DNA from: Choanephora cucurbitarum
Lineage: Eukaryota > Mucoromycota > Mucoromycetes > Mucorales > Choanephoraceae
NCBI GenBank assembly: GCA_025331435.1
Contig: JAIWNI010000102.1
Location: 36,465 to 100,464, forward strand
Length of the DNA stretch: 64,000 nt
Direction: 5' to 3'
Shown here piece after piece: positions 28,100 through 63,899 of the stretch. The position numbers were made by a program, and so were the translations under genes. The notes below the pieces were generated by a model. That model ran no database searches and was not told the origin of the DNA. It was given only the letters and a program-made list of their open reading frames with translations. Position 1 is the stretch's first letter. The number at the start of each line of letters is the position of its first letter.

Positions 28100-28800
28100 T
28101 TTCTTTTTACATTACTCTTAACAACAGATCAAAATTGTTCTATTGGGTTGAGTTCTGGAGAGTAAGGTGGTAGGTAAATGCAATCAGCCACGCTCTTTGA
28201 CCATCTCACCAATTATTTTACTTGTATGTATGGGCGCATTTTTCATGATTAGATAATGTCCCTTCGGTTCAGAAAATTTGTCCATCTCAGCCAGAACGTC
28301 TTTAATAAAATTGACATAGTGATCGATTGTCGTGCCCTTTGATTGCTGGCTTTCTTTTCTTTGGAGAAGGCATGGGCTTTCTCAAATTAATTTTGAACGA
28401 GCCTTTAGCAGAAATAGCGCGCAAGATGGAAATTGAATTGGCTCTAGCCGTAAGTACTTTGACTTTGGCAGCCTCCTCTTTTAGCGCCCAGCCTTGAGTT
28501 CTTTTCAGGTTTGCATTGGACCCTGACTCATCGACAAAAACATTGTTATTCATATAGTCAACACCAATATCTTTTAACATTTTCACCCATTGCTTTCTCG
28601 CCTTGATTCTATCTGGTGCGTTTCTTTCTACCGGCTCTAATTGGACCTTCGTAAAGATGAAAATCCACATGTCAGTTATGTAGCGGTAGAGCGTTCTTTT
28701 CAGAATGGTCAGTTTCTCAAAGCTGTTATTCATCCGATCCATCAACTGATCTATGGTACCAATAGGATACTTGTAATAGAAGTCAGACTCTAAGCTAAAA
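28100..28800 (-). pseudogene. Dead Tc1/IS630-type transposase, catalytic half
   Basis: Reading from about 28800 downward, the frame encodes a conserved helical part (DRIKARKQWVKMLKDIGVD), the first catalytic block NNNVFVDESGSN (Asp near 28532), GTTIDHYVNFIKDVLAEM, and the second block, which reads IMKNAPIHTSKII. There the catalytic Asp codon is replaced by Lys (28241-28243). A frameshift follows before YLPPYSPELNPIEQF, and the next Trp codon has become TGA (28129-28131). The element is therefore inactive. It is a different, better-preserved lineage from the copy at 21.8-22.7 kb. Confidence 0.8.
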
Positions 28801-28914
28801 TTAGCAGTAGTGGCCTGGTATGATTTTTATACTCAATCTAATTCATGCAAGCTCAATTCAACTAACATTATATTTAGTTGGTTTCAGTAAAAATCTAACT
28901 TATTTACATTCTTG

Positions 28915-30060
28915 TTACATCGATAATCTGTTTTGCTCTTGACTTCTTAGTGTACTTCTAGACTTAAATATCAGTACATAAAGGGAAAAACAATTCAATA
29001 CACTCTCTTCTTTATATACCATGTTGATAGACTTAATTTCTTTAACCTTCGTAGGAGTTAAATATACATTTGGTGACAGTTCTTTTGAGGCACTACCAGT
29101 ATCATCAGTACCACTAGCGATGCGAAAAAAAAGTGTTCTTCTTCTTTGGCAATCACTCCTCTCAAGATGGTATCCTGTAACTTGATATGATGATTTTTCC
29201 AAATATACATGTTTTTGAGCGTGGCTATGAACGAAGGCAATTGAAGTAGATATTCTGGTATGGAAAGGTTGTTAGTGTGTTTGGCTATATAAATATTGTT
29301 AAATAGTCAACAACCCTATTATTAAGATATGTATGAGTATGTGCTAGAAACAGTAGGGGATCAACTTACCAACCCAGTCCATACCAAGCGTATAAACATT
29401 TTTAGAATCATTTTCAGAAAGGGGTGGTTCAAAAGTCTACTAAGAATGGCTTTGTTCATTCTAATATTTTTACTTGCTGAATCAGGCATTGCTCCTGAGT
29501 ACCTTTTTTTCTTTTCCTTTTGTTAGTTGATAGTTTGATATTTCTTGTGTCTTCTTTCAGTAGTTTGTCTTTCAGCAGTGGTATTGCTTGACGAAGCAAC
29601 AAGGTTGATATTGCTAGAGATCACATTGCAGTTTATTTTTATACGGTTAATTGACTCATCTTTGACAAGACATTGTTACAAACTAATGCTCAATGACTTA
29701 CCCGCTTGCTATAAATTTCCTTCAGGTATCTGGTTTTCATCTTTGTTTTCACTTTCTTTGACAATATTGTTTGCAGAGTCTTTCAATTCTTCACTGATTG
29801 ATGGATCCTTTGCTGTGCTTTTCAGATGGTATAAAAACGTACTTTCGAGGGCTTTTTTGCTCTTTCTGTAGATGTTGTTCTTCGTAATATTCAATGTAAT
29901 TAGGCAAATCCCATGTTTGTGATGGTACTGTTTGGAACAACTCTCCAGTACTGACATTGTCACTGATAAAGATTTGAGGGAAGTGAATACTCTCAAAACG
30001 AGCAACAACTACAGATTGATGCTCAAAATGATTTATCAAGAAGTTGTAGCTTTCACTTGG
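28915..30060 (-). pseudogene. Broken Mucoralean-family gene, C-terminal part
   Basis: Several minus-strand blocks look like exons of one gene. The first (about 30060-29850) contains FPQIFISDNVSTGELFQTV and WDLPNYIEYYEEQH. A second (about 29840-29700) contains DPSISEELKDSANNIVKES. A third (about 29460-29370) ends YTLGMDWV before a clean GTAAGT donor. It joins in phase to a block after 29290 with SIPEYLLQLPSFIATLKNMY and WKNHHIKLQ. The frame then shifts at a run of eight T near 29130 before the last 70 residues and a stop at 28915. The WKNHH-type C-terminus is one I associate with expanded Mucoromycota proteins. At least one frameshift and one in-frame stop argue for a pseudogene, although an unusual intron cannot be excluded. 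Confidence 0.45.
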
Positions 30061-30237
30061 TATTCAGCTATCACAATAGTGTGATTTCAAGAAGCACAAG
30101 TAAATACTTCTCAGTTAGAATTAGACAACCATATATCTCTTCGATAAAATATGTTTTTTGTTCCTATCTCTTTTTTAATAAATTTGTGTTTTCTATCTTC
30201 TTAGTTGCAAGGTTTCAGATAACCTTGAAGTTTACAT

Positions 30238-32333
30238 CTATTTCAATGCTAAAGAAATTCTTTCAACCTTGGTAGTGCTATTTCGCAACCATGACAAAGG
30301 CGTCTTGTCTTGTGTCTCACGTCCCAAATGCCGGTTTATATAGCATGCTTTTACGGCCTGTGCAACTTTTAGTGTAAACGCCTATCAACAAAAGAGAGAG
30401 AAAAACGGTTAGTCTCTTGTATGATTTCAGAAAACTTTCCGTTTATACCCGTAGGCGCATCATGTCCTCAAAAAAGCTTGGAAAAAGTGGGAGTTGTCGA
30501 AAGGAAAGACATAAATCTGATTTTGACAACTTCACAAACCGGTATACACCGTCATATGCTAAATCCATAGCAAACGTTTCACACTTTGATTCTATCAAAT
30601 GAAATAAAAAAGAGCTTTTATTATACTGGTTGTCTATATCAATGTTGTGTATACTTTGTATTAAGATTCCACAGGCAATAGGTCGAACCACACCAAGATG
30701 TATTAATTGATGTAGTACTAGCTTCATTTCTTTTGCCAGCTTCACATAATCCGATACAAATCCAGGATTTCGCTTGTATGATACTTTCAATTCTAGTGTG
30801 CCAATCACAGTAATTACTGGGTTACCGTTTGCAAATACTGCCCAGTCCGGTTTATAGACAGTTTCTGCGACGTCTTTGCTGCTGCCTACATCAACTTCAG
30901 CATTATCGTTATCATCTTCATCGTCATTTTGCTTCCTTTTTGTAGTAGGCAATAAGGCTCCATTGGCCCTGTGGACAATACATGACGATCAATTATGATT
31001 TCATTCAAACTCAATCCCTTTTTCTTCTTTACCAATCTTGCTTGAGGCATTCATCAGAGCCAAAAATGGTTTCCAATATGGGATCCAGATACTGATGCGC
31101 GAAGCTGTCTTCCAGCATGCGCTTCCCATCGTTACTTTTGATCAAGCGACCTGATCTGTAAACGATATGTTCAGAGATATGTGAGCTGGAATATGATTTG
31201 ATGAACTTACAAGGCATGAATAATCTCAGCAGCAAGAAGATCATCATCATTATCAGTATCAGCTGCTGCACATATGCATTTGGCTGTAGCCAGCTTGACC
31301 TCTCTCCAATTTGGGCTATCCATCTGCATTTGCAATAAAATCAATACGGTTTGTAGTCTAACAGACTAGCATGCTACAAGCCCAACCTTCGTTGCAGTAA
31401 TAAAATTAGCACCCTCGCTGCGCTTTGGTTAATTTTATTGACCTTCACTATGGTTCGGTACATTGCGCTTCGTAAGATGCTAGTATAGTTTAATAGGTTT
31501 CTTACTTTTACAAGGTCGTTACACCATTTGATTGCAAATTGATTTGTCTTCACTGACTGTTGCATCAGCGGAATATCTGCAATTACCGTTTTATGCTGAT
31601 CATCTGTAAAAACAGGAGTGCTTTCGTTGACATTCTTTCCGAAAGGAAAAATATAGTAAGTGCTCTATAGTAAAGACAGATGAAGATGTAAGCCATGCCT
31701 TACTCTTCTATTCTTTACTTACAAGAGATCAATGTCTGATAATGGCTGGCCTTTGTTGTGTCGAATAACGACTTGGTCGCGAAATGAATGTAACAGATCA
31801 GATACCAAAATATCACCAATGATCCACTGTTAGCAGTGATTCCCATACAGTTAGGTTCAATAGACCATCTTTTTAATTTATCGATTTCCCCTCTTTACCT
31901 TTGCTTCAGCTTCAATAGTGGCAGTGCTGGCATTGACATTCTTGATATCGTATGAATAAGTACGGCGATTATGACTATGGATCTAAATAAACAAATAAAA
32001 AGATTAAAACACCTGCTTCTTTTCAATTCAAAAAAAATTACTTACTACTGTCGTGATAACATGATCATTTTCAATGTGCTTTTTGAACACTGCTTCGTCG
32101 TCAAAGAACATTTTGCAGAAACAACAACCGAAACAAGTGCGTGAGTTCGGGCCCGGCTCTGTGACAAAAGTAATTTCTTTGGTTCCTTTACGTCGCTCGC
32201 TTGTGAAGTTACATTTCAAGGTATGAGAATTTTCAAGGTGATCTCTCAAAGTTTTTGATCTGGTCACGCTAACATGGCAATATGGAAAACGGTTTATCAA
32301 ATAAATAAGGGACGACATAGGTAATAGGAACAA
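30238..32333 (-). CDS. Mucoralean-family protein: C2H2-like finger plus PD-(D/E)XK-like domain
   Basis: Nine exons close in phase: 32333-32046, 31982-31899, 31826-31723, 31662-31506, 31323-31211, 31155-31033, 30968-30655, 30591-30449 and 30381-30238, giving about 489 residues. Exon 1 holds zinc-finger-like text: SKTLRDHLENSH and then CxxC-x12-H-x4-H in CCFCKMFFDDEAVFKKHIEN. Exon 7 has an acidic linker, then PDWAVF and, 13 residues on, ELKV, the spacing and order of a PD-(D/E)XK nuclease core. A helix with KLAKEMK follows, and then the MDLAYDGVYRFVKL block. It is the least damaged member here and looks functional. The function is unknown: DNA-binding plus nuclease-like is inference. The exon 4 acceptor uses the second of two adjacent AGs, and the first-exon start is the least certain part. 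Confidence 0.65.
31399..31439. repeat. 10-bp inverted repeat with GC-rich loop, inside an intron
   Basis: AATAAAATTA at 31399-31408 is exactly matched by its reverse complement at 31430-31439. The arms are separated by 21 nt that are much richer in G and C than the surroundings. It lies in the 182-nt intron between exons 4 and 5 of the nuclease-like gene, the longest intron of that gene. Confidence 0.6.
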
Positions 32334-33710
32334 AGAATTGCTAGAAAAAAAAAGCCCTATCTCAAGACATTAGAATTCAGCTGTTAGATGAAGGTATCAC
32401 AAGATTCCCATCTGATCCTTAAAAGCTTTATGCGCCAGAGAAACATATTTGTTTGAGTTTTGCCTCGTGTTTTTGAATAGAAGTGAGTGAAACTTACAAT
32501 TGACTTTGCCCTTGAACGAAGCAACATTCCATAGTCGAACGCACTTTTCAAGCCAAAATTCCTTGTGGTAACAAACAAAGCTTATCTTCTCCTTTTTGTG
32601 TATAGTATTCGCTTGATTTGAGAGCATTTTGTTAAACATTATACTTCATGTATGAGTACAAACTCTAAGAGCATTGACACTCTCAAACAAGCCAATTGTT
32701 GTATCATTCAAACAAAATGAATAGTCCAGCATTGTAGCGCAAACAACTATTGGAAGCTATCTGGTAAATCCTGATTAAATGCCGTATGCAGAACTAGGTT
32801 TGCCTCAAAAGAAAATGCTTGGAGAGGTAAAAGAAATACAATAAAAGGTTATTCTCTCTTGCAACAACTTAAATAACAAAAATGATGTTATTCATTTATC
32901 TTCATTTTTATTGGTGCATAAGTTTGCCACTGTCTTTGTTTGATTATGATCAATCTGTAACTGATTTATTGAGATAGATAGATTGGAGCTTTCAGTTAAA
33001 GCTAAACGAGCGAATCAAAAGATTTTCATAAACAGAATACATTGAGTAATAGTTTATCACTGTTTTTTTTTATAAGAGATGTTATCAACTGCGGGTATGC
33101 GTATGAACTAGTTTGGGTCCACTAGAGCGAGGGACTGATTCAGTAAGTAGTAAAGTTTCGATAAATTCTCATATGCTAATGCTTTAATTTAGTTAAGAAT
33201 GTAAGAGCATGTAACTCGTTTTCACTTAATACACCAATGGTTCAGCTAGAGGTTGATGATGTTCTGTTTATTTCAGGGTAATATAAACACTTTGACTCTT
33301 CTGAAGTAACTTGGCGTCATTAGGTTTTGCTATTCTGTTGAATTGAGATTGAGTCCCTACGTAGGCATAGTTCTTGCTATTTCAGTCACTTCTGATACTT
33401 CTCTATGTGGATAGTTGCTAAGGTTGATTTCAAGCACTCCTCTTATTTAATTCTTACATAGCTATCGAAGACGCTATCCATACTACAAGATCTGTTATCA
33501 ATTGCATTTCAGGGGCACTGATAAAATGTTCTTAATATGTTGAATTCTCTTCTTCAGGTTCACACTTTTTGGCCTATAATGCTAATGAATGCAACCAGCT
33601 TAGGAAGTCGTCATACACAAGAAGATTGGTCTCAAACCAGACGATTATTCCTTCATTTTCAGACCGCTCACTGAAGCTAATGATAGGATTGCACTGTTTG
33701 ACTACAATGT
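32334..33710. other. Intergenic, upstream of the nuclease-like gene
   Basis: About 1.4 kb. The minus-strand frames at 32384-32639 could be an additional 5' exon of the gene that starts at 32333, but I cannot join them convincingly. A single stray unit resembling the downstream array (AATGTAAGAGCATGTAACTC) occurs at about 33198-33217. Otherwise nothing is recognised. Confidence 0.4.
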
Positions 33711-34010
33711 TGTAAGAACAAGCAGACTCCGTTGTAAGAGCAAGTAGATACTGTAAGAACAAGCACAATGTTGTAAGAGCAACTCAACTCCGCTAAAAGA
33801 GCATATCAACTCCGATGTTAGAGCGAATGAAGAGTCTAAGAACACGTCAACTCCGATATAAGAGCATGCAACTCCGATAAAACAATAGGCAAATTTGTCA
33901 AATCAAACTTACTCCGCTACAAGAACAAGTGAATGCTATAAGAGCAAGCACATTGCTGTAAGAACAAGTCAACTCCGCTGTAAGAACAAATGGATGTTGT
34001 AAGAGCAACC
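33711..34010 (+). repeat. Degenerate tandem array of ~20-22 bp units
   Basis: About 13 imperfect units are read directly. Each contains (T)GTAAGA(A/G)CAA or a close variant, and about half continue into (TC)AACTCCG. Good units start at 33711, 33732, 33751, 33771, and near 33958-34000. A central part (about 33875-33915) is more diverged. The array ends in an A-run about 88 bp before the ATG of the flavin-reductase-like gene, so it lies in or next to its promoter/5' UTR. Confidence 0.85.
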
Positions 34011-61145: not shown

Positions 61146-62819
61146 CTAATAGGGGGGATACCAACTTGGCGCAATCCAGGTCGAATAATCAACAAATATG
61201 TCATCAGTAAAGGCAGGTGGAGTATATTTGAATGAACGGTGGTCACTATCGAAAAACTCGCTGCTCTTCTTTATCAAACTCGCCAGTTCCTCCATTTCAA
61301 TAATAAGAGTCATCATGCTTTCAAAAGTATCCCCAAAACCTTCCAATGATAAAATATTAGCAGGGATTCCAAAAGAAAACCGAGGGAGGGCAATGTACAC
61401 ATATTTTCGATACAAATAAACGGAGCTTGTTTGGCAAGCCAAACCACCAACTTGGAAACCTGTTCCCGACAGCATGCGTATATCTTCAACGTTAATGGTA
61501 CTGTTTGTAGATAAATCAACCACGTCTTTTGATTCGATTAATAGCTTAGCAGCGTCATATGCCTTCTTTTTTTCAGAGGGGAGTGCGTTTGCTGCTTCGA
61601 ATGCACCAACATCGATATCATTTCCATCAGAGCTGTTGGCAACGAATCTCAAATCTATCCTATGACCAATCACTTTGTCCTGATTACTGTACATGATGCT
61701 TTTCATAAACTGAGTGTATGGATTGGTGCATTCACCTCCTTTTACCAGAATGATGTTGTTGTGAATATTAGCCATTTTTCTTAACAGAGGGTTCCAGATT
61801 ACAGCCAAAAAATCGATTTCAGACCTTTTTTGTTTATCATCGAATATCCATGCATTTTCATCATATAAGTCTACCATGAAATCAAACACTTTTAAGATTT
61901 TGATGCTCTCGGAATGTGGACCCTTGCTTTTATACTTGGTATCCATCACCTGTCTGATATATTGCTTGGCTTTTACAGTGGAATTATTCTGGAGACAAAA
62001 TGCAGACAACAAAATCCATGTGACCTTCAAACCCTTGGGAAGATGGTACGTACGAGTTTGATAAATGGATTTAAAATATTCATAAAGAGGACCCCATCTT
62101 TGAGCTGACAGTGTCTTCTGTGAATCTTGGTCAGTATCACTAAAGTCAATAATCGATGATAGTCCAAGGCTCATTCGCTTGAACTGGGCAGGCTCGAGAA
62201 CAGTTCCTCTTGCAAAGATATCATGCAACGTTTTGGCTTCTTCCTTGAGATTACTCCTGATTTTATTAATATCGATAGCTGTGTCGGTATCTGGATTTAA
62301 GAATCTTGACATAGAAGGAGAGGAAGGTACAGTAGAACGGTAAGAAGAGCTAGACACGGATGATGACAAAGGTGAAGGCGTGCTAGTTTTCAAAGTCTTT
62401 TCTTGGTGTTTCTTTATGTTCGGTTGCTGTTCCGCTAATCTTTTTCTACCACGGGAGATACCCCTTGAGACCTCTTCAGCTGCTACAATATCTGCGTCGC
62501 GTCGATTCTCTTTATCTTTTTCAAGCAATTGGAATTTGTGTGAACAATAGTAGTTCTTTACGTTTCCTACGTATTTCTTTATCGATATGTTTCTGTGTTT
62601 GGCTGATATTGTCTTGAAAGCTGTTATAACTGCCTTGAACACTTCTCCTTGATCATCATCCAAATCTTGTTGCTTTAAATATTGACTAATGACTTTATCA
62701 AAATCAGAGTAATCAATTAGAGGTACATCAGCGAGTAGAATATCAGCTTTGAGTGTCTTCGACGTTTTTTCTGAAAGGGATTTCCCATCAGGAATGCCGT
62801 AAGGATATGACTTTCTCAT
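61146..62819 (-). CDS. Mucoralean-family protein with nuclease-like region, single exon
   Basis: An uninterrupted frame of 557 residues. Residues 1-130 are helical and charged. A Ser/Pro-rich linker follows (TSTPSPLSSSVSSSSYRSTV). From about 320 the text is typical of an expanded Mucoromycota family: RSEIDFLAVIWNPLLRKMA, then GHRIDLRFVANSSDGNDIDV with GAFEAAN, a helical AYDAAKLLIESKDVVD, and FQVGGLACQTSSVYLYRKYV and ALPRFSFGIP. The D...E pairing (IDLRF, GAFEAA) resembles the core of PD-(D/E)XK folds but lacks the usual Lys two after the Glu, so it may be inactive or diverged. A LINE has inserted 16 bp upstream of the ATG. The function is unknown. Confidence 0.6.
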   Translation of the reverse strand: MRKSYPYGIPDGKSLSEKTSKTLKADILLADVPLIDYSDFDKVISQYLKQQDLDDDQGEVFKAVITAFKTISAKHRNISIKKYVGNVKNYYCSHKFQLLEKDKENRRDADIVAAEEVSRGISRGRKRLAEQQPNIKKHQEKTLKTSTPSPLSSSVSSSSYRSTVPSSPSMSRFLNPDTDTAIDINKIRSNLKEEAKTLHDIFARGTVLEPAQFKRMSLGLSSIIDFSDTDQDSQKTLSAQRWGPLYEYFKSIYQTRTYHLPKGLKVTWILLSAFCLQNNSTVKAKQYIRQVMDTKYKSKGPHSESIKILKVFDFMVDLYDENAWIFDDKQKRSEIDFLAVIWNPLLRKMANIHNNIILVKGGECTNPYTQFMKSIMYSNQDKVIGHRIDLRFVANSSDGNDIDVGAFEAANALPSEKKKAYDAAKLLIESKDVVDLSTNSTINVEDIRMLSGTGFQVGGLACQTSSVYLYRKYVYIALPRFSFGIPANILSLEGFGDTFESMMTLIIEMEELASLIKKSSEFFDSDHRSFKYTPPAFTDDIFVDYSTWIAPSWYPPY

Positions 62820-62834
62820 TTGATAAGAGTAATT

Positions 62835-62849
62835 TGAGTGGTCAATAAA
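62835..62849. repeat. Target-site duplication, left copy
   Basis: TGAGTGGTCAATAAA at this position is exactly repeated at 63900-63914, flanking the LINE fragment. Confidence 0.9.
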
Positions 62850-63899
62850 TTGCCTGTATCTCTCACACAGATATGAAACAGCTCGATGACATCCAAAACC
62901 GGCTGGTCCGTGTGTTCATTGGTGGCTCTTGGTTCCAAGTAGCAAAACACATCACTTGCCTGCCTGCCATGATTCATAGGTACAATGTCCTTGTCACTAG
63001 ATACGCTCTACGTGCACAATACCTCCCTGATGACTGCTTGCTTGTGCTCTTATATGATCAACTGCGGTACCCTCGCCTCGTTAAACTTCTTCAACAGAAT
63101 GCTCTCTACCTCTCTTTCCCCGATCCACAGCCTATCTCTAATGCTGAGCTTCGTGCTCACTTTAGACGATATTGGCAGGATCAATTCAACCCCAAATGGC
63201 AAAACAAGCTTCTCTTGGTCGCTCTGTCCTCTTGCGTGCCTGTCGTCCGTGCACTTATAAGCCGGATCCAATCCTCTACCTCCCCATGACAACCACTGCT
63301 CGCAGTCGGCTTGTTCGTTGGCGTCTGGGTCGCTTCGTGAAGAATGCCCTTGTCTCTCTGGTGCCTTCATTTCAAGAGATCATTTCTTGTCTTGTCGCGC
63401 ACTTGACTCTGAACTCCTTTCTGCTCTCCCCTCTCCTCCTGCTGGCGCTCACCTGATCGACCATGCCCTCAACTCTCTGCCTGTAAAGGCCTCAACTGGT
63501 CCACCACCCTTTTGGTCTGCTCTGCTCCAGTTGCTCCATGCGATTGACTCTCTGGTGCATCCTCTTGCTACTATCGCTCCTGAATCCGATCCACAAGGAT
63601 CGTGGCTTCCTCATCGTCCTCCTCGTAGACGAAATGACCTCTTTAGTCTACTCATTGCGCAACCACGATGGTAAGTGAGTATCAAAGTTCCCATCCGTTG
63701 GGTTCTAAAGTCGTCTCAGTACTCTGTTGCTGTCTCTTTCTTTTTTCTCTTTCCTCTTTTTCCCCTTTTTCGTTGTTTTCTGCTGGGTTTTTTTGTCCCC
63801 ATTCCACCCTTTTTCATTTAGTTTAGTTCATACAATTTGACTTATGCTCCATAGAGTTGCCCATATAATTGTTTATAAATAAAAAGATAATGTTTAACC
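62850..63899 (+). mobile_element. 5'-truncated LINE (non-LTR retrotransposon)
   Basis: The insert is bounded by an exact 15-bp direct repeat. Its coding remains run from about 62873 to 63674 and change frame at least twice. The first piece (62873-63230) has IQNRLVRVFIGGSWFQVAKH and the LPAMIHRYNVLVTRYALRAQ stretch found after the reverse transcriptase. The second (about 63230-63345) contains PDPILYLPM and SRLVRWRLGRF. The third (63330-63674) contains a Cys/His knuckle (CPCLSG...HFLSC). The segment is GC-richer than its surroundings, which suggests recent arrival. The RT domain itself is absent, so the copy is dead. The tail before the right repeat is T-rich and then A-rich, without a long poly(A). 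Confidence 0.85.

Follow-up and report, generated by a model that had tools for sequence, protein, structure and literature searches.

Some fungal nucleases act in conflicts between genetic elements: Spok proteins, which kill by means of their PD-(D/E)XK domain, are believed to pass between species (PMC6660238; PMC12693581). Crinkler proteins commonly bear domains of the restriction endonuclease (REase) superfamily at their C-termini (PMC5289972), and the mitoribosomal proteins mL37 and mL65 are repurposed endonucleases (PMC8998825). Here, these systems are compared with a gene of Choanephora cucurbitarum, found on the minus strand at 32318-30238 of a 64,000-nucleotide stretch of contig JAIWNI010000102.1 (positions 36,465 to 100,464 of the forward strand, assembly GCA_025331435.1). 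This whole stretch is called the window, and all coordinates below refer to it. The gene belongs to an expanded family that is unnamed in the four libraries scanned, and conservation together with the predicted structure of a homologue makes it very probable that the family has a PD-(D/E)XK, i.e., restriction-endonuclease-like, fold.

The gene and its predicted PD-(D/E)XK core

When the gene is spliced against its relatives, nine exons join into a single 484-residue frame that starts at an ATG at 32318, and not at the edge of 32333 given in the first-pass annotation. All eight introns are GT-AG, with lengths of 55-182 bases, the exon junctions are covered by the relatives' proteins, and the alignments with relatives P0001-P0006 span 74-90% of the query's length. 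The public Choanephora cucurbitarum annotation cuts the gene into three hypothetical proteins, P0011 (EDC96DRAFT_525422), P0018 (EDC96DRAFT_414229) and P0023 (EDC96DRAFT_15671), which correspond to residues 1-154, 207-365 and 366-484 of the model, each with an identity within 99-100%. From this agreement, and from the relatives that span the junctions, the nine exons with closing phases that had been read from the letters alone are borne out. A 144-residue protein of a second Choanephora strain (P0026; presumably strain KUS-F28377, going by the locus-tag prefix A0J61) matches the model at 87% across 77 residues. An eight-exon model was dropped because the stretch that it retains has no counterpart in any relative; when that stretch is treated as an intron, the following model with nine exons results.

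32046..32318, minus strand: exon 1, N-terminal zinc-finger module with finger 1 degenerate (FPYC) and finger 2 CX2CX12HX4H; common to P0011
31899..31982, minus strand: exon 2; common to P0011
31723..31826, minus strand: exon 3; common to P0011 as far as residue 154
31506..31662, minus strand: exon 4, acceptor 2 bases downstream of the relatives' equivalent, start one base shorter
31324..31505, minus strand: intron 4, 182 bases, containing a repeat like a miniature inverted-repeat transposable element (MITE)
31211..31323, minus strand: exon 5, helical part; common to P0018
31033..31155, minus strand: exon 6, core helix A (LEDSF...) with conserved Glu; common to P0018
30655..30968, minus strand: exon 7, basic cluster, acidic linker and PD...ExK putative active-site region; common to P0018 and P0023
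30449..30591, minus strand: exon 8, C-terminal part of the core; common to P0023
30238..30381, minus strand: exon 9, C-terminus and stop; common to P0023

In the 484-residue model, PDWAVF begins at residue 325 and LELKV at residue 343. An alignment of 13 members, consisting of four homologues and nine own-genome paralogues that are 17-55% identical to its first row, has eight invariant columns only: the four motif residues P, D, E and K, plus a pair of Lys and a pair of Gly. When the query is instead aligned with 20 homologues, two of them trimmed (P0011, P0012, P0013, P0014, P0018 and P0023 being left out), the Glu is kept in all 21 rows, the Asp and the Lys in 19 each, and PD in 18, with departures at PD in P0005, P0008 and P0024 and at the Lys in P0007 and P0025. 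Within the Choanephora genome there are 32 distinct cores (34 rows minus the window's own row and the second piece of locus L044), where PD is kept in 28 of the 29 that cover it, E in 29 and K in 31 of the 32; the departing loci are L044, L038, L072 and L021, and the profile used for these cores derives from an alignment (A4) that itself includes nine of the paralogues. Ten rows extend as far as helix A, nine of them opening it with Glu, and three rows fall short; the basic cluster is present in 11 of 16 rows.

The predicted structure of P0003, a Phycomyces blakesleeanus homologue and not the window protein itself, has a predicted local distance difference test score (pLDDT) of 70 and a predicted template modelling score of 0.74. 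Its core has the order alpha-beta-beta-beta-alpha-beta and bears the motif on two adjacent strands, and in structure comparison it matches restriction-endonuclease-like structures. A second predicted structure, that of P0001, reached a pLDDT of 45 and was not used. The proposal of a PD-(D/E)XK nuclease, made originally from the order of PDWAVF and ELKV, is thus supported both by the Asp and Glu-x-Lys, which stand among the invariant columns of the 13 members, and by the core topology of the homologue's model. Window open reading frames of at least 60 residues total 25,812 amino acids and contain the bare pattern PD-x(12-20)-ExK in two places, the gene and one other, so that the motif by itself is weak and the weight rests on its conservation. 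The family is also likely to be catalytically active.

The C2H2 spacing noticed earlier in exon 1 holds for finger 2, which satisfies CX2CX12HX3-5H as CX2CX12HX4H and scores under the Pfam cut-offs. Finger 1 fails the pattern in the window copy, where Phe replaces the first Cys (FPYC) and one ligand is lacking; in P0001, P0005 and P0013 the finger reads CPYC and the pattern is complete.

Family size and spread

Merged genome searches with the query and three paralogues give 58 family loci on 41 contigs of the 33-Mb Choanephora genome, a count that is a lower bound, though redundant contigs and split genes may inflate it. The window gene has a single close copy in this genome. Two of the 58 loci are inside the window, and the second is borderline:

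61146..62915, minus strand: second, borderline family relative in a 589-residue open frame, E 9.7e-4

Three protein searches, which require shared words and have capped output, gave at least 26 matched proteins, those of the Choanephora annotation included. The named sources, available for 22 of them, are all from genera of Mucorales, a restriction as found and not a proven one, and P0019, P0020, P0022 and P0025 carry no source name. No family above cut-off or beyond weak scores was obtained from Pfam, NCBIfam, PADLOC or PHROGs, scanned with protein sets that differ by library, with the exception of a DDE_3 match to the transposase portion of P0007. Profile searches of Protein Data Bank (PDB) sequences gave no supported family match, and no paper naming the family was found in the open library. 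The large, poorly described family of Mucoromycota that the first-pass annotation suggested is therefore supported for Mucorales, by the 58 merged loci in the Choanephora genome, where homologues were counted, and by the lack of a library family.

More distant homes were sought as well. The candidate DUF5898, taken from the best BFVD match (E 0.013), had no genome match, but the control genomes likewise gave none. Patterns from alignment A2 matched 594 prokaryotic and 194 viral stretches, none of which was confirmed; since these patterns are narrow, distant prokaryotic or viral kin may still exist.

The ratio of nonsynonymous to synonymous substitution rates was tried for seven paralogue pairs and is 0.12-0.15 in four of them, values that suggest purifying selection on those four pairs. 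It is 0.24 on six changes for L023/L024, while L054/L055 are identical and L031/L032 keep only 4 codons. Seven recent duplicate pairs are 96.6-99.95% identical; in five of them the copies lie inverted on a shared contig, in one they lie in direct orientation on a shared contig, and in one they are on two contigs. The inverted, near-identical pairs L042/L043, L048/L049, L054/L055, L060/L061 and L066/L067 have their members 3-18 kb apart on the same contig, and may reflect true inverted duplication or else an artefact of assembly. No terminal repeats were found in the seven duplicated units, two of which reach the end of the available sequence. Among neighbouring pairs within 20 kb, 7 are inverted and 3 direct, compared with 9 and 5 for kinases, which is no excess.

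In the zinc-finger subfamily, pairwise identities over 153 core columns are 69-91% among nine rows, which come from Choanephora, Phycomyces nitens, Syncephalastrum, Rhizopus, Benjaminiella and Zychaea, and 81-91% against the window copy. When identities are compared within and between genera, the Rhizopus rows are 78-86% identical among themselves and 84-91% identical to Choanephora, and are thus no closer within their genus; the rows of two Phycomyces species share 66%. The subfamily tree is star-like, and the identities do not track the genera. A clade of the two Phycomyces rows is rejected (approximately unbiased test, p 0.008) and a clade of the four Rhizopus rows weakly so (p 0.026), the value being 0.097 for three rows without P0021; rows without a source name, one of which is identical to the R. 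stolonifer row, are excluded from these tests. The pattern suggests that the subfamily may be mobile or horizontally spread, old paralogy followed by loss being a possible alternative. The gene model of P0007, from Rhizopus delemar, passes from a DDE_3 transposase into the equivalent of exon 5, at the position of the MITE-bearing intron in the window gene.

Surroundings and state of the window copy

The description of the gene as sitting among dead transposons applies to one DDE_3 relic and one intronic MITE, and fails for the neighbours, which are mostly ordinary genes, among them those for a flavin reductase and an Na/Ca exchanger and an arrestin-like gene.

28302-28826: weak DDE_3 (Tc1-like) relic, about 1.4 kb from the gene on its downstream side, with 82 other genome matches
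29791-30063: open frame on the downstream side of the gene, with no second genome copy, within a coding stretch that looks degenerate
31365..31484, no strand assigned: MITE-like repeat of about 120 bases in intron 4, with ends ACTAGCAT / ATGCTAGT

The MITE-like repeat has 42 match rows at 39 other genome places, three being second rows at one place. Degenerate direct repeats built on TAAGAACAAG / CTCCG units lie at 33705-34007. A 14-base inverted pair around the gene (30154-30167 / 32324-32337, 93%) belongs to a set of 20 similar pairs within 6.7 kb, and nothing convincing as transposon ends was found around the gene or the duplicates.

When distances to mobile elements are compared over the genome, a transposase match occurs within 5 kb of 6 of the 58 family loci and of 2 of the 121 loci in the kinase control (p 0.015; 128 of 147 kinase rows used). 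The window locus is counted here by construction, because the transposase query was taken from beside the window gene. The difference is significant at 5 kb and not significant at 2, 10 and 20 kb.

The gene was originally called intact, and its frame does close. At the exon 3/4 junction, where the relatives read DLLALDYIF, the window copy reads DLFTYYIF, and the start of its exon 4 is one base shorter than theirs. An acceptor equivalent to that of the relatives would shift the frame, while the AG 2 bases downstream preserves it, so that the open frame depends on the displaced acceptor; it is at this junction that P0011 diverges from the nine-exon model. Together with the zinc ligand lost from finger 1, and with Lys at residue 390 where all 14 other rows that reach the position have Gly, this qualifies the claim. 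Against decay, the window copy departs at 4 of the 74 columns without variation among the other rows, compared with 0-11 for eight relatives, and in both trees its terminal branch has zero length. That the copy is already decaying is a tentative reading, with the balance slightly against it.

Possible function and relation to known systems

The explanation that fits best overall, and which is favoured with modest confidence, is a nuclear nuclease acting in genetic conflict. The protein has an N-terminal C2H2 module, then a helical domain and, at its C-terminus, a predicted PD-(D/E)XK core split by a disordered acidic linker. It would be a metal-dependent enzyme of the nucleus, in which the finger or fingers and the basic cluster target DNA and the core cleaves it. 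The zinc-finger subfamily might, more tentatively, take part in genetic conflict as a selfish, toxin-like nuclease or as one directed against mobile elements. The conflict role taken alone is somewhat less probable than its negation, and is the preferred reading; Spok genes show that fungi use the PD-(D/E)XK fold in this way (PMC6660238; PMC12693581). A wider version is rather improbable: a Mucorales-wide arsenal of an undescribed PD-(D/E)XK class, with about 58 loci in one 33-Mb genome, whose zinc-finger subfamily would pass from genus to genus as a selfish or toxin-like gene and would be the counterpart, in early-diverging fungi, of the Spok and REase-Crinkler nucleases.

If the nuclease served in genome defence against mobile elements or viruses, numerous diverged copies, purifying selection in four pairs and a putative DNA-binding finger would all be expected features, and they are seen; PADLOC models, which describe prokaryotic systems, are unmatched, and the proximity to transposases is weak, confined to 5 kb and in part contributed by the window locus itself. 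Defence is therefore unlikely, though it is the strongest of the alternatives. A Spok-like killer or drive gene, whose nuclease harms nuclei that lack the element and which spreads between species, would account for the star-like relationships of the subfamily, and recalls the PD-(D/E)XK killing and presumed interspecies movement of Spok described in the same two papers. This is doubtful, in that Spok has a resistance kinase domain where Pfam scans show none, no antidote gene is known beside the window gene (none having been sought), and the Choanephora genome has one close copy only.

A protein that binds DNA or RNA and, in the manner of mL37 and mL65, has retained the nuclease fold for structural or regulatory purposes is about as improbable as the wider arsenal, since its active-site residues would hardly rank among the most conserved of the family, as they do here, in a retired enzyme. 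Least probable by far is a host-directed, Crinkler-like effector: a zinc-finger module occupies the N-terminus, the Pfam list contains no Crinkler domain, and close relatives occur in genera known mainly as saprobes. In its favour are the REase-superfamily domains frequent in Crinkler C-termini (PMC5289972) and the infection of plants by Choanephora cucurbitarum (PMC5238444).

The gene is of interest in that its host is a mould that rots squash flowers, and in that a nuclease-like family absent from four libraries is expanded in this crop-rotting mould and present in related Mucorales. Should its members prove to cut DNA, genome defence, gene drive or another form of nuclear conflict would be candidate roles for them, in an order where few such systems are known.

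With the PD-(D/E)XK superfamily, for instance the nuclease domain of DrdV, the family shares the conserved motif and, in the homologue's model, the predicted core topology; it differs by having no family-level library match, an acidic linker within the core, and added C2H2 fingers and helical part. Like Spok, it is a fungal protein with a predicted PD-(D/E)XK domain and an uneven, possibly horizontal spread. Unlike Spok, it has a different N-terminus and no kinase domain in Pfam scans of query and relatives, and by this domain test it is not a Spok protein. With the REase-Crinklers it has in common a C-terminal domain of the nuclease superfamily and an expanded eukaryotic family, while zinc fingers stand in place of the Crinkler N-terminal domain. 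Pfam matches up to E 10, obtained with a 505-residue version of the protein, include no Crinkler domain, so that membership fails and the suggested Crinkler-like link is unsupported; a genome search for Crinklers gave no match, but no control genome gave one either.

Among the structures listed as matches to the P0003 model, the best are mitoribosome chains, presumably mL37 and mL65 going by the chain names, which match the helical part and core over about 200 residues with root-mean-square deviations of 3.9-5.9; a structural family beyond that list may also exist. Over P0003 residues 79-379, they match better than restriction enzymes do. PDB sequence profile searches up to E 10 gave no mitoribosomal chain, and no paper joining mL37, mL65 and nuclease was found in the open literature, though PMC8998825 contains the word endonuclease. 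Compared with mL37 and mL65, the family described here has zinc fingers and a conserved catalytic motif, and its predicted fold may offer a clue to, or a comparison for, the origin of these ribosomal proteins.
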